A stretch of 64,000 nucleotides of DNA. It comes from Paraphysoderma sedebokerense (lineage: Eukaryota > Blastocladiomycota > Physodermatomycetes > Physodermatales > Physodermataceae). The stretch spans positions 1 to 64,000 of the forward strand of contig JAHLJZ010000036.1 of NCBI GenBank assembly GCA_025602915.1, written 5' to 3'. Position numbers and translations under genes: made by a program. Position 1 is the first letter of the stretch; every line of letters begins with the position of its first letter. Shown here in pieces: positions 48,562 through 58,530 of this stretch. The notes under the pieces were generated by a model. It saw only the letters and a list, made by a program, of their open reading frames with translations, made no database searches and was not told where the DNA came from.

Positions 48562-51500
48562 TCAAAATTCTATGTACAATCGCTCAAGGATATGCCTAAA
48601 CATATTACTCCTCTCTGTCATATCATATGTCGCCTTCCCTACTATTCGCCAAATTTGTGGATCGTCAATTTCATTGGCCAAGTCGTAAGCCCTAGGATAA
48701 AATGTATTCGTCAAAATGTATGAATAATTGGGTAATGAGATAACAAATACTCACCGATCCAGCTGCCTTAATTCGTCTACGAGGACCAATGTCGCCTCAA
48801 CGTGCATACCATGGTTGTAGAGCATTTGATATGCTTCCTATATAGTGATGAATAAAATCGTTAAAATTCATTGTGAATAAACGCTATCTTCAAGTAACAT
48901 TGAAATATCACCTCGTAAAATCCCAGCAGAATGGCTGATCGTGAGACCACAAACGGATCATACTGATTTAGTTTGTCCATGCCAATCATATTCTTAACTT
49001 CCTCGTTAGGACTAAACAACATTCCTACCAACAGCAATAAAGTTTGCAGTGTCCTGTACAAACGAAATCAGACTCCTGGTAAACCATTAATGCTATAAAT
49101 AAATGAAACTTACTCATTTTTACTAAATTTCGATTCATTCTTGAGCACAACCTCTTCCAAAACAAATCTCAATAATTCGCTTCGTTCCTCTCTGATCAAG
49201 GCTTCCAACAAAATAGCCAAATGTTTCCCGTCTTCTCCGAACAATTCAGTTAAGTTATCCTGATTAGTCAAAACTACACTTTCCAACAGAATATCAAATT
49301 TCAGTCCCAATGTAGCCATTGCTTTTACCCAAGTTACTCGAGACCCAGAATGCATAAGGGACCGGAAGATTCTAGTGTAATGCGGGTTCGTTGATGAAGT
49401 AGGAGAACCGTTTAATTGATCACAAATGTCCATTGCACGATGAAGAAGGTTATTTTCAACACATAAATCAAGAACCTCGTCCTTGTTGAAATGACTAAAT
49501 CTTCGACGCTTTAGAAGCTCTTCGGCTTCCTGTAAATATCATAATCGTAAGTTTAAACTCCTTCATTCTAAACCCAGAGAACGCAACTCACCGCAATGCT
49601 TGAACTGAACAGCAATTTGATGACTTTTGTTTGTAAGGATCCGTACTCTACATTGTCTTCGACAACTTCCAATGCATCCAGCAAAAACGTAGCCGCATAA
49701 GCCTGACTTCCTTTTTCCAAGAATGTTTCCGCGATATGGTTTAGGAAACTAGGGTCTCCGGATTTAGTTTGAATCATTCGTTTCGCATATTCCAACCCTA
49801 ATTCAGGATTCCTTGAAACCATCCGCGACAAAACTGAAATATCGCTGGGCGTGTAGTTTGATTTAATAATGTATTCTATCAACTCGGGGTATTGCTCTCG
49901 ATTGGCGAGTAGGCGAATCACTTTATATTGCGAGTTACATTGTTGATAAGCTTTTAGCGCGTAATCTAAAAATGAACCTTCCTATGGTTCGAAAGTTAAA
50001 AAATGATTGATTAGTTGTTAGCGACACAATGAAATCAAAATGATGACAATGTTACGTACCAGAAAGCTCAGAACGTCACCCAATTCTTCTGATAAGGTCA
50101 ATTTTCGATTTTTAAGAGCTTCGTGGACTACTGTATTCTGATTGCCTTGTAACCCAAACCGAACAAATGCAACGCTCTCTGCTTCATCGAGTACTCGATA
50201 ACCAGAGACAACATTTAAATACTTAAGCGATCATGTAAGTTAAAACGAAAATATTCATCTGGAATGATATACAAAAACTTACCAAGAGGGCAGGATGAGG
50301 TGTCGATTCTGAAGGCGTAGACTTCCGGCTTAAGACGTCAAGCACTTTCGCGGCAGGATAAGAATCCTAATGGGTATCTATATGTGTTAGTCTCGCAATG
50401 TCAATGTAAGGTATGTAAGGATAAAGTAAATCCACAGACCATTTTGCTAGCGAAATATGCAGCACTCTCGTAATCGCCGGAGTCCAACATCTTTTTCAAA
50501 ACATCCCATTCTGTCACTGTCAATGGGCCAGCGGGTGTTAAGATTGTCGAAGATTCAGACCCACTCCCACTATTTCGGACTTCATTACGGTTAACAGTTG
50601 ATGATGCTATACTACTTGTCGGAGAAACAAGGTTCGCACAGCCGTCACTCTCAGTTATAGATGGCAAGGCACGGAATCGTTCCCCTGAAGGTGACGGCTC
50701 AAGTAAGGGTAATTTTAGGTGCATTATCTGCAAATCAAAGCGATTAGTTTAAAAGTTCATCGCACAAGAGAACAATATGAGAGAAGGAAAATTACCAAAC
50801 CGCGGCTATCAAGCATGTAAATCCCCTCGTTATCATAAGTAGTCAAAGAAGGAAAAACGCCGGTTGGCAGAACAGTCTGCTTAATGATACATTCTCCAGA
50901 AAGTAAACCGTAAACGAGCAAGAAACCATTCTTCGATATCAGTATCACTCGATCATGCTGATATATAGGTTCAATTGTAGTGATGTAATCGGAGGCAACG
51001 CTAATGTCGACGTGAAATTTAGTGGGTTGGTTTTGATTGGTATTTGAGAGCGGGATTAGGTGGAACTAGAGTGTGACATTGTCTTAGAAAGCTCATGGAA
51101 GTTTAGTCATCACAAATAGTATAACTACATACCGAAACTCTTGTAGTGCTTCGACTTATCATGGCCAAAAATAGTTCATTTTTCACTTGTATGATTCGTC
51201 CAAACTCGCCATCAATCACTAAAGAACAACCAAATGTCAACGATGATATAGAATAAAGGAGAAGAGAGACAAAAACAAATTCGAACATATTACCTTGAGA
51301 CCCATCTTTCTCAACTGAAAAAAGTTGCAACTTTCCAGACATTCGGCTGCCAGGAATATGAGAGCACAATAACATCCATTTCGGATCCCTTTCATCATCC
51401 ACGTCAAAATATGAAATATTATTACCACGCAACTCTTCAAACACATCAAATACAACATCCATTTGTGGTGGATTTTTCTTAGCCAATCCCTCAACAGCAG

Positions 51501-53455
51501 TTGGATCCTTTTCCAAAAGTGTGACCATGACTACCTCGTCATCAGTTACTCCGACTAGAGACGTTTCTGAAATCCACTTGGCGTATTTGAACTTCCCGAT
51601 GCCACGGAAACCTCCCAATTTTGTTTTAGAATCCAGGTCAAAACAGGACCAGGCGTCAGAATTGCTCTGAGATACTGCGACTATATTTCGAGTGGGATGA
51701 AGAAGGACGTATTGTGCGTTGATTGATTTTTTGATATTAGGGAAACCCGGCGTAAGGGGAATGATGTAAAGGTGTGATGATGCTGTCGATGAGACAGTAG
51801 ACGACGAAGAAGGGACGGGAGTCTTAATTGATTTTAAGAGGGCAATCGCTCGACGAGACGGGAATGATACACTGAAAGTTTGAGGCTCTTCGGGTGGTGG
51901 AATGATAACACCGGAAATCTATGGCGCAAGGTAAATTTGGATACATGAAAATATGAATTATATTACTGTTATAAGTAGTTACCATGAGCAGTTTCTTTAA
52001 TTGAGCCTTTTTTGACTGACTCGAGTCTGATTCGTAACTGCTCGCAATACTCGGTCTCCTGCCATCCGGAATTGTAATACTAATATTCGATGGTCGTCTC
52101 TCACTAGAGGTATCAGTCATGTCGTCATCTCGATTCGATAGGCTAGGAGATTCTTGGTCAGATTGTGAATGCGCCGAAGGACTTGGTTCTCCGTGACCTT
52201 CGCATGTGATGATGATTTCTTTCAAGTCTTTGCGGTCTTCCGGAGAAACTTTGAGCAAAGACGTAATGATATTTGAGATTGAAGATTGATTTGAATCGTA
52301 ATCGGATGGAAATGTGAAAGCAGCCGTCGTAACATCAGACTGTGCAGTGAATGCTGGTTGACCGAATCGAATTTGGAAAAGAAGAGTGCCAAGTTGCTAA
52401 TGAGAGGTAGTTATATTCAACTATCAAAGGGCATATAATCCCGGATATTAGTATAGAACATACCCATAGATCTGTACTCGATCCTAAAGTGATCGTGTCT
52501 TCAGAACTCGGGTCCTCTAGTATTGCTTTCGCTTTCAGTAGTTCAGGGCTCATATTCAAGGGATCCGTCACAATCTGGAGCCATTCCATTATACCTTCCT
52601 CTTCGGACGGTACAGTCAGAGATCCTACTCTCGCTGACCCAAAATCTGCCAACTTGTAGGTGATGCTGCTAGTCAAGGTTCCCGACTTTAGCAAATGATG
52701 GTGGATAAACACATTTTCGGACTAACAAGTATTTAAAGTATCGGTAAGGTGATTTAAACTTGCAAGATAAATATGAAGATTAAGCGAACCCTAATGTCGA
52801 AATGAGTAATGTCCAACTCATGCAACCAAGCCACCGCTTTTGCAACATTTCCAAAAATGGCCAACGAAGTAGCGTCGTCCAATTCACCAGACAACACATC
52901 CAGCAAGTTCCCACCCGCACAATATTCCAATAGTATTCCTTTTTCATTATCTGATATAATTGAGCTGATGTAATCGATGATATTTGGGTTTGGTGATTCG
53001 GATTGCCGCTTCCGTATGAGTTCTAGAATCTTTACTTCGCGTTCAATTTGCTATGGATATATTACACATATGAGGTTTTAACAGAGTTTAGAGATAAAGA
53101 GAAGTATAATCAGATTGATTTAATCAAAAGAGAGTCCAAACCATTCGTAAAAATTTGTCGTCGGTGTCGTTCTTGTCGTCTGACTTTGAACAAAACCATT
53201 TCAACACCCATCTTTCTTTTGACAACAGCTGTTCTTCTTTCACTACGTAAGACTTAGAAGTTCTCCCTGCATAGTTGACAGTCAGAGAAGATTTAGTGAA
53301 TTATCCATTAGGGTGAGTAAAAACAACAGATTCGGCTTGTTTACTCGACCGTAGTCGTAAACAAAATCCGTTTCATTTGTACCTTCATCTAAAGACTTTA
53401 CCACCACTAAGTTCTTATCCCCAACGTTGATTTTCGAGTTTTTCTTCAGTGACAT
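48562..53455 (-). CDS. Protein kinase fused to a shortened clathrin heavy chain
   Basis: About 16 exons give roughly 1,280 aa. Exons 1-5 (53350-53455, 53142-53266, 52790-53050, 52464-52721, 51983-52396) encode a kinase of about 300 residues: beta-3 Lys in RWVLKWF, alpha-C Glu in QIEREVKILE, hinge LLEYCAGGNLLDVL, catalytic loop HFDIRSEN, DFGSARV, MSPELL. LLEYC.GG and DFGSA resemble the NAK family (AAK1/GAK), which regulates clathrin adaptors. After a Ser-rich linker, exon 6 (51294-51918) continues in phase into a clathrin heavy-chain beta-propeller (YVLLHPTRNIVAVS, FKYAKWISETSLVGV, PKWMLLC, LISKNGFLLVYGLLSGECI) and leg repeats (LSEELGDVLSFL, FLLDALEVVEDN, LQTLLLLVGM, LDRAYDLANEIDDPQIW). About 300 residues of distal leg are missing internally. 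The protein stops before the proximal leg, light-chain site and trimerisation domain. One gene or two was considered; the open frame crosses the linker without a break. Confidence 0.85.
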
Positions 53456-55585: not shown

Positions 55586-58530
55586 TTATGAATCAAAAAT
55601 TTCTAGTAATACCCCATCTATAATGATTAAAAATCGCCCAATATTTAGTATCACATTCTTATAATACTCAACAACATCCAAGAAGAAAAAAATATCAAAC
55701 GTACTAGCCAACCTCTGTAGCTCTTCAAATTCCTTCATATTCTCTTGCAAACTCTCCATCACTTGGAAATACTTGAACAAAGTATCCCTAGGCCATAAAG
55801 TTTCCCCTTTGACAGTTCCAAACGCTTGCAAGGTTTCATCTACTGTTTGTTCCCATCCTTTAGTCACTCCCGCACTGGCTCTTAATAATTCTTCAATAGC
55901 TGTGGAAACCGTTTTAGTCTTCGTTGTTGGATGTGGGGATTCGTCAGAATGCGTCGGGCTACTGGTGGAAGAATGTGGAGGGTGGTGTGAAAAAGAGGTG
56001 TTGTAGTATTCTTCGGGAAAGTAAGGGGGTGGTAGTGTGATATTGGGTGGTACCCCTGGATTTGGGGATGGTTGAGAGGTAGTCGCGGTAAGAGAAATTG
56101 TGGGTTGTGAATTCAGGTTTGTCAAGCTTTCAGTTAGATTGGCTAATGACGTGCGTAATTGGTTCAGCATAGGATGATTCTGAATGTTCGAAGACGGTCG
56201 AGGAAGAGTTTGGTTAACTGGGGGAATATCGGATGAGTTCAAGTTATGCGGTGATCGAGCGATTGGGATTGGACTATGATGAGGGCGAGGCTGGTTGGTA
56301 GACTCATCCGATACTACGTTGCTGGATCTGGTCTCCTCTGTGGATACAGTATCATTACTGACAATTCGGCCCTCATCGTCTTGTTTGTTCAGTGTGCTAA
56401 GTATTTGCTTCCGACTCATATCCGTACTGTTGAGAATATTGAATAGCATTAACACCACGTACACCAAAAGTCTAAACGGAAGAACTCTGGCATACATACA
56501 TATTCTTTAAACTACCGTGCATCTTCAACTCTTTATCCAATTTTCGCCTCAGCCTTCGAAATCTTTTAGCTTTGAGGTACTCGGCTTTCTTTTCTTTAAG
56601 TGTTTCACGTAGTTTTCCGAAATTGCTCACTGCATCAAAACTCAGTAAGCAAAGCAATACAACACTTAGCATTTATCATATGAGAAAGATTAAACGCACC
56701 CATTACACCGACAAAAATATTTTTAAAAATGAACGCTCCCAACCAAATCCATAGTATCAGATAAATCCAAGTAGTTACAGGATCCGTTACCTTCAACAAG
56801 TCGTTCGCAACATCGTACCAATTATCAAGCGTTAACAATTGAAATAAAACGCCAAAAACTGTCCCTAGATCACTGATAAACATCAATGAGACGTTTTCGA
56901 AAAAGTCAGCCACAGAAATCAACCGATTAAAGCGTAAATACGGTACGTACGTAAAATCTGCTCGATACTTTAGATCTTGGATATCACTTCGTCTGTACGA
57001 ATCGAATAAGTTCAATGCTAAGACACCAAACAAGTAGACCACTAGCGCTATTAATATAGCGATGATTGCCAGTGACTGCGATGCGATACGCACAACAACA
57101 AAGAGAAAGGGTAACGTAAATAAAGTCGCGGGGTAAGAAAAGGTGATAGAATCGAGAGAAACTACATACCCTAAATGCCTCTATGATAGTAAGCACAATG
57201 ATTTTCAAGCTCCCGAATCGAACTACCTGTATACAACAGACATTCATTACACTACCTGATACGTTAGACGTAGTAGAAATCATTGTAAATACCAATTTTA
57301 ATGCCCTTAATATCCGAAGCATACGAAGCTGTTTTATGGATTTCGCAAAAACAGTGTTGTTATGTTCACCTGCTATGAATAAATCAATGATCACTGGTAT
57401 ACCGGACTATTTTGATGGTGAAGTTAGCACCGCTGAATGAATGGAGGGTGATTGAAAAAGACCTCGGTCTATGTACTATCACTGTCACAAAGAAATCGAA
57501 TAGATTCCATCCATCTGTCCAAAACTCTTCAAAATCTTCCAACCATTTCAATGTAATCTCGAATGCGAAGATTATCAGTGATACTAAATCTATATTGACG
57601 AATCCGATTTGTGAGAATGGACGCACGTAGAAACGATATACAAAGAGGCTACACACCCAGAATCTTTACGCCCATAAATAGTTGCCAGTGTTGATCTTCA
57701 TCGTTACTGAACTCTATATTCAATGATATACGGTTTAGTTCATCCTAATTAAATGATTCGATAAAGAAAGAGTCGAAACCTGCTGTGAAAGCTGCGATGA
57801 TTGAGTTCAACACAATAACACCTAGAATCGTATTATGGAATATGTCCTCTACAAGGGCGGAAGTAAACAGTTTGAAAAGGGTCAGATAAGTAAGTCCGAT
57901 ATATATTCACCAGAAATAAAGAATTCAAATCTGCTAACTATTCACCAGCCAAGTAGCCCAAGATCCCAGAGGAACTGTTCCTTTGTTTTTAATCCTCCGC
58001 AGCCTTCTATCTACTTCTTTAGGTTTTTGATTCTGTCTTCGGAAGACATTGAATTTTATCAATTGGTCTGGATTGCCTCGCAGAATTGAGAGAAGTGTTT
58101 TTGGATCTGTACAAATCTATTGTATTAGCGTTTGAAGCCCGAAACTCAAGAAAGTGTGAGATTTAACAGTCACCTCTGAGGTCCCTAGTACTATAATCCG
58201 CTCCAACATTTTCCAACAGTTGAAAATCTATTTGTATATGCCATCATTAAAACGACATCGTTGTTTCGTATTGTTCGTCATTGTCAGCCATCACCAATTG
58301 AAAAGCTGGAATACGGGTTTTCTAAATCGTTTGAAAAGAATCAACATACCCTCAATCAACCGTTGTCTAAATACCGCAGATCTGGAGGACAAATCATGAA
58401 AAGCGTCCTGGGGAATAGCCAATGCAGCTTGGAGGTCGAAATCATCAGCTGTAGATCCAGTTTGTTTATTAGAATCGAAAGAATCGAGTGAGAAGGAAAT
58501 GTTGGAGGAGAGAGAACCGAGTCTGCTCAT
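55586..58530 (-). CDS. CATSPER2: CatSper2-like calcium channel pore subunit
   Basis: Multi-exon minus-strand gene for a six-span channel subunit. Resolved segments align in order with animal CatSper2: the N-terminal RQRLIEDFQLLENVG, DPKTLLSILRGNPDQLIKF, GSWATWL, then S1, S2-S3 (FAFEITLKWLEDFEEFW, WNLFDFFVTV), an S4 with regularly spaced basic residues (KQLRMLRILRALKLV), QDLKYRADFTDLGTVFGVLF, the selectivity filter TLDNW (T-x-D-x-W), DLLKVTDPVTTWIYLILWIW, and VSNFGKLRETLKEKKAEYLK. A Ser/Pro-rich tail follows, ending with WPRDTLFKYFQVMESLQENM. This C-terminal motif matches the end of CatSper2 itself. CatSper forms a heterotetrameric, alkalinisation-sensitive Ca2+ channel of the flagellar membrane. 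Apparent stops in the S1-S2 region fall inside GT-AG introns of 66 and 68 nt. The frame looks complete. Confidence 0.88.

Follow-up and report, generated by a model that had tools for sequence, protein, structure and literature searches.

The window analysed here, a 64,000-nucleotide stretch of contig C36 in the genome of Paraphysoderma sedebokerense (27.3 Mb, 195 contigs), a blastocladiomycete that parasitises the alga Haematococcus, carries on its minus strand a gene that appears to encode a single fused protein, in which a kinase domain is followed by a Ser-rich linker and by about half of a clathrin heavy chain (CHC). We give roughly even chances to the reading that this is a fused single-gene kinase steered by half a CHC onto adaptors, for which we infer one transcript, the activity, the docking and the targets. 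Adaptor motifs are read by the half of the CHC that is retained; the half that is lost carries the light-chain site and the trimerisation hub.

The coding region is assembled from 16 spliced exons, from position 53455 down to 48562, which together form an uninterrupted frame of 1268 residues with no stop or frameshift (Table 1). All 15 introns are of the GT..AG type and 60-116 nt long. According to a script comparison, the spliced product is letter-for-letter identical to the deposited P. sedebokerense model BKA69DRAFT_510794, which very likely comes from the same assembly as the window, its contig being as long as C36 (226,303 bases), and is independent only in its gene calling. The continuous frame and its identity to the deposited model support a single fused gene, in agreement with the original prediction of one continuous minus-strand gene encoding a kinase and then clathrin, and the joining intron lies where it had been placed (51982-51919). 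A single transcript would be expected from this gene structure. In exon 5, a single frame takes in the final fifth of the kinase domain, the linker and the residues up to intron 5. Read upstream, the propeller frame hits a stop at the intron-5 acceptor and has no methionine between residues 378 and 508, and the propeller therefore requires an upstream exon.

Two products from the one locus would be an improbable alternative in our estimate: a kinase-only protein (made, for example, when intron 5 is kept) and, from an inner promoter, a clathrin-like protein whose first residue is Met332 or Met377. Both methionines, located in exon 5, would allow such a shorter product; one that begins at Met332 would be Ser-rich at its N-terminus, as is the Blastocladiella emersonii homologue H9P43_003597 (P0002) described below (Ser 0.24 in the linker, 0.23 in the first 245 residues of the homologue). 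With intron 5 kept, the kinase frame continues for 52 residues to a stop at 51824. However, the deposited model joins both parts, intron 5 is unremarkable for this gene (64 nt, GT..AG, GC 0.28), and its 64 nt would offer little space for a 3' end and a promoter. As a separate observation, one splicing choice at intron 5 (51919-51982) could toggle between the fused form and a kinase-only protein with a 52-residue tail.

Table 1. Features of the kinase-clathrin gene (all on the minus strand; positions are those of the window)
Feature	Position in protein or gene	Window coordinates	Strand	Basis or remark
Whole coding region, kinase and truncated CHC	16 exons, 1268 aa	48562..53455	minus	splicing as in BKA69DRAFT_510794
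Protein kinase domain	aa 24-300, exons 1-5	52214..53386	minus	Pfam Pkinase 83.3 bits; motifs
Intron 1, phase 1	inside Gly25 of the glycine loop	53267..53382	minus	place and phase equal to an intron of the AAK1-like gene
Ser-rich linker, 75 residues	aa 303-377	51983..52207	minus	wholly in exon 5 with the kinase end
Intron 5, 64 nt, phase 0	separates linker from propeller	51919..51982	minus	spliced model
Clathrin terminal-domain propeller	aa 378 to ~710, exons 6-9	50710..51918	minus	phmmer, CHC 51-325
Intron 7, phase 0	after aa 614	51066..51132	minus	exact match to the CHC intron after CHC aa 227
Intron 8, phase 0	after aa 704	50728..50795	minus	exact match to the CHC intron after CHC aa 322
Ankle and distal-leg repeats	aa 787-1050	49416..50481	minus	phmmer, CHC 374-632
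Second leg stretch	aa 1111-1247	48628..49235	minus	phmmer, CHC 983-1115; gaps before and after

The clathrin part was identified by a phmmer search against the PDB chains, which returned three CHC stretches (51-325, 374-632 and 983-1115) with a total of 163 bits and an E-value of 9e-47. In Pfam, the Clathrin repeats scored 66.1 bits (cut-off 29.6 bits), and no propeller model was listed at E-values up to 1. The domain check suggested by the original prediction thus held for Pkinase and the Clathrin repeats, whereas the propeller, which is about 23% identical to that of the organism's own CHC, was seen by phmmer and not by Pfam. Alignments with the own CHC and two others gave no counterpart in the fusion for approximately CHC 690-985, nor for anything beyond approximately CHC 1118-1132; the edges of these gaps vary among three MAFFT modes, which also thread a few short islands into them. 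Both losses had been foreseen, one as about 300 internal leg residues and the other as the trimerisation and light-chain region. The protein thus has the N-terminal propeller and the leg repeats of a CHC and lacks the light-chain site, the hub and the proximal leg. With this leg and the trimerisation hub missing, the fusion protein should not be able to form triskelia.

Descent from a CHC gene is shown by the phmmer match and by two introns (introns 7 and 8) shared with the organism's CHC on contig C5 in exact alignment column and phase. These are two of the 11 introns in the clathrin part, and in a simulation with random placement (11 versus an assumed 12 introns) at least two exact matches arose by chance with P ~0.001. 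The remaining nine are not exactly shared; intron 9, after residue 800, is two codons off a CHC intron of the same phase and was excluded from the count. Also excluded was intron 5. Two of five alignment runs (one judged by eye via protein P0003, one with MAFFT globalpair) put it 0-2 codons from CHC intron 1 and in the same phase, and the other three do not align it there. Because two introns are exactly common to the fusion and the own CHC, the clathrin part is most simply explained as a duplicate of the CHC gene rather than a retrocopy. Relative to this gene and to CLTC, the fusion resembles them in its propeller, ankle and distal-leg repeats and differs by the missing regions, the N-terminal kinase and the low propeller identity. 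The tail of exon 5 was also considered as a remnant of CHC exon 1, which we do not claim, since its similarity to the CHC first exon and to P0002 is not significant (1662, 1181 and 469 of 2000 shuffles were as good).

As the original prediction had asked, we looked for a separate full-length CHC and found it on contig C5, where the gene matches residues 11-1609 of another CHC. The spliced model of this gene is 1634 residues long, and we read 24 of them as an unspliced intron: residues 173-196 of the model (locus G000:C5:239000-247999) are encoded by a stop-free, in-frame stretch resembling a 72-nt intron, which a gene caller could easily keep. A clathrin light chain is represented by one partial match (48 bits, contig C56), and an AAK1-like kinase is encoded on contig C4. 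Genome searches, which score the best candidates only, gave 13 matches to the clathrin half, 11 in the fusion gene and two in the CHC on C5. For the kinase half there were 15 matches: five belong to the fusion gene, and the other 10, all weak (E 1e-7 or worse), to other kinase loci. Given this pattern, and the presence of the ordinary CHC, light chain and AAK1-like kinase, the fusion seems to be a single gene that exists in addition to them.

Whether the propeller may still bind ligands was assessed at positions that we take to be the clathrin-box, arrestin-box and W-box residues. In the clathrin-box groove, five of nine residues are identical to the own CHC (P 0.03), compared with 23% over the propeller, and in the arrestin-box groove four of seven (P 0.05); three further groove residues are conservatively replaced (R64K, I80V and R188K). 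These figures speak for a propeller that can still recognise adaptor motifs but do not prove it. Weighing against it, none of the four W-box residues is identical, and the P values are uncorrected for the three site sets, which makes the conservation nominal. The suggestion that the kinase is targeted by the propeller therefore fits the partly kept peptide grooves and is weakened by the W-box and the nominal P values. In the mechanism that we propose, the Ser-rich linker ties a divergent, probably NAK-derived kinase to the half of a duplicated CHC that binds adaptors; the propeller and ankle of this half would dock on clathrin-box and arrestin-box motifs of adaptors and accessory proteins. Once docked, the fusion would keep its kinase at vesicles that are forming or uncoating, and there the kinase may phosphorylate adaptors or coat components; the fusion could possibly also compete with true clathrin.

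The kinase domain, well above the Pfam Pkinase cut-off of 31.7 bits, contains all the residues named in the original prediction: the beta-3 lysine (Lys47), the alpha-C glutamate (Glu71), the catalytic aspartate (Asp151) within HFD at 149-151, Asn156, and Asp179 of the DFG motif at 179-181. A full domain with the Lys-Glu pair, HxD, Asn and DFG of eukaryotic protein kinases is accordingly present. Activity is nevertheless uncertain, because the HRD arginine is replaced by phenylalanine and the catalytic-loop lysine by arginine (DIR for DIK), and the glycine loop is degenerate (EGRTSKS), without the canonical first and third glycines. These changes, together with NMSPE in place of YRAPE, count against an active kinase.

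They are also what the main rival explanation draws on, which we consider unlikely: the same fused protein would be a pseudokinase or a weak kinase, serving as a scaffold or as a monomeric clathrin decoy that would restrict coat assembly by occupying adaptor motifs. The branch of the fusion is the longest in the kinase tree (2.72) and the model of the B. emersonii homologue has no kinase, both of which would fit this explanation. However, the lysine, glutamate, catalytic aspartate, asparagine and DFG motif are all retained in the fusion, while pseudokinases often lack some of them. A parallel in favour of the rival comes from trypanosomes, where a study of AAK1-like proteins reports a changed HRD arginine (Arg to Trp) in the trypanosomatid AAK1L2 and describes AAK1L1 of salivarian species as a predicted pseudokinase (PMC10952953).

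The kinase of the fusion is likely a descendant of the NAK family (AAK1, BIKE, GAK and STK16, and Ark1/Prk1 in fungi). In a maximum likelihood tree of 15 kinase domains, it joins the four NAK sequences with a support of 89/96, which is below the star mark of the tool. The activation segment, from DFG to SPE, spans 29 residues in the fusion, 30-34 in the four NAKs and 21-23 in eight of the ten others, the remaining two non-NAK kinases having 38 and 41 residues. A long activation segment (the ASCH insert) is given as a NAK family trait in the family's structural survey (PMC4780864). Furthermore, a glycine of the loop is split by a phase-1 intron both in the fusion ('L-D-E-G') and in the AAK1-like gene ('L-A-E-G'). 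This intron is absent from all eight other kinase loci in which the match covered the loop (nine loci examined), and the chance of one such kinase-intron match is ~0.03.

Several results speak against this ancestry. Approximately unbiased (AU) tests rejected none of four other placements of the kinase (p 0.13-0.20), and the AAK1-like gene lacks three of the fusion's four kinase introns. With home-made group hidden Markov models (HMMs), of which PAK, PDK1 and CDK were built from one sequence each, the fusion scored 77.5 bits for NAK, barely above CAMK (75.6), followed by ULK (67.5), PAK (35.4), PDK1 (24.7) and CDK (14.8), and 12 of the 14 other kinases, namely the four NAK members and eight of the ten non-NAK kinases, outscore it on the NAK model. 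A phmmer search against PDB sequences placed ULK2 and PAK1 best and AAK1 lower. Finally, the fusion lacks the double glycine of the NAK P-loop (LDEGRTSKSYVV), the HRD arginine and the Tyr-Arg before APE, which the same survey includes among the NAK features (PMC4780864). The link to the NAK kinases made in the original prediction is thus favoured by the tree, the activation-segment length and the shared intron, and opposed by the divergence, the three lost features and the AU tests.

In comparison with known NAKs, the fusion is similar in having its kinase near the N-terminus, an activation segment of near-NAK length and no canonical first and third glycines, in addition to the shared intron and the tree grouping, and it differs by the three features above and by carrying half a CHC where the others have a NAK tail. 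A parallel in layout is GAK (cyclin-G-associated kinase), whose PTEN-like, clathrin-binding and J regions bind clathrin: in both, a clathrin-pathway kinase and a clathrin-contacting region are placed in one chain. In P. sedebokerense, by contrast, the fused part is clathrin's own ligand-binding half.

A homologue of the clathrin part was found in B. emersonii, which belongs to another class of the same phylum, the Blastocladiomycota. The protein H9P43_003597 has 1555 residues (332 bits, E 1.8e-93) and aligns with the fusion in three stretches of 28, 31 and 46% identity, the last over 148 aligned C-terminal residues. It ends near CHC 1150, at about the same CHC place as the fusion, and its residues 1086-1378 (293 residues, 65% Ser/Pro/Thr/Ala/Gly), located at the position of CHC 690-985, have no match to three CHCs below E 0.1, with MAFFT threading parts of them over CHC. 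We read this protein as having the same truncation as the fusion, with a similar end and a CHC-free stretch at CHC 690-985, and the truncated heavy chain thus probably predates the split of the two classes. H9P43_003597 is also swollen by long Ala/Ser/Pro/Gly-rich inserts between its clathrin repeats, including at the site of the missing leg.

The two proteins differ at their N-termini. In the place of the kinase, H9P43_003597 has about 245 Ser-rich residues (Ser 0.23, compared with 0.24 in the linker of the fusion), and Pfam finds no kinase in the model, only Clathrin below the cut-off. The truncated clathrin has therefore been seen in two classes, in one species of each, and its join to the kinase in one of these two species, which weakens the case for the fusion. 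The original prediction had named two separate genes in relatives as evidence against it; what was found goes part of the way, a clathrin part whose model is without a kinase. Either the kinase was gained in the Paraphysoderma line, or it was lost, or missed in annotation, in Blastocladiella. H9P43_003597 was the only homologue of the clathrin part returned by the database search, which is word-based and of limited sensitivity. Narrow-region searches found only the query and one ordinary CHC, or the query alone; they missed the known homologue and are uninformative on absence.

The join in one of two species and the strong divergence could also be taken as signs of a fusion that is neutral or decaying: an accident of this lineage, with no fixed function, in a genome that has a working CHC and AAK1-like gene as well. 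We regard this as improbable. The 16 exons contain no stop or frameshift and the catalytic residues are retained, and the clathrin part occurs in two classes with 46% identity over the C-terminal stretch.

Directly downstream of the fusion gene, at ~45.8-48.25 kb on the minus strand, lies coding sequence of the C1-tetrahydrofolate (C1-THF) synthase type, with THF dehydrogenase/cyclohydrolase and formate-THF ligase domains (PF02882 and PF01268). Folate-dependent one-carbon genes of P. sedebokerense have been studied as antifungal targets in a paper that also names a public RNA-seq data set of this fungus, PRJNA822859 (PMC10276916). On the other side, also on the minus strand, a 306-residue stop-to-stop frame at 55586-56506 is Ser/Thr/Pro-rich by eye and has no Pfam match at E 0.01.

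The original prediction knew of no described protein with this architecture, and we likewise found no description of a kinase-clathrin protein among the titles and abstract starts listed by searches of open-licence PMC papers. CLHC1 was weighed as a possible truncated relative of clathrin and dropped. As coat proteins, clathrin heavy chains are strongly conserved and are regarded as triskelion builders. In the preferred reading, that of a kinase steered by half a CHC onto adaptors, a portion of a clathrin copy would have come to serve as a guidance device that steers a signalling enzyme. More tentatively, and with less than even confidence, we propose that the Blastocladiomycota possess a second, non-coat clathrin, which kept its ligand-reading half and lost its lattice-building half before the class split, and which then became the targeting arm of a NAK-type kinase in Paraphysoderma. 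If true, a former coat protein would now act in signalling, as a receptor for adaptor motifs. A hub-less CHC copy fused to a kinase of an adaptor-regulating type would show that the ligand-reading half can act alone, and the fusion would tie together two partners whose contacts are normally transient, providing a natural test of the effects of kinase recruitment to coats.

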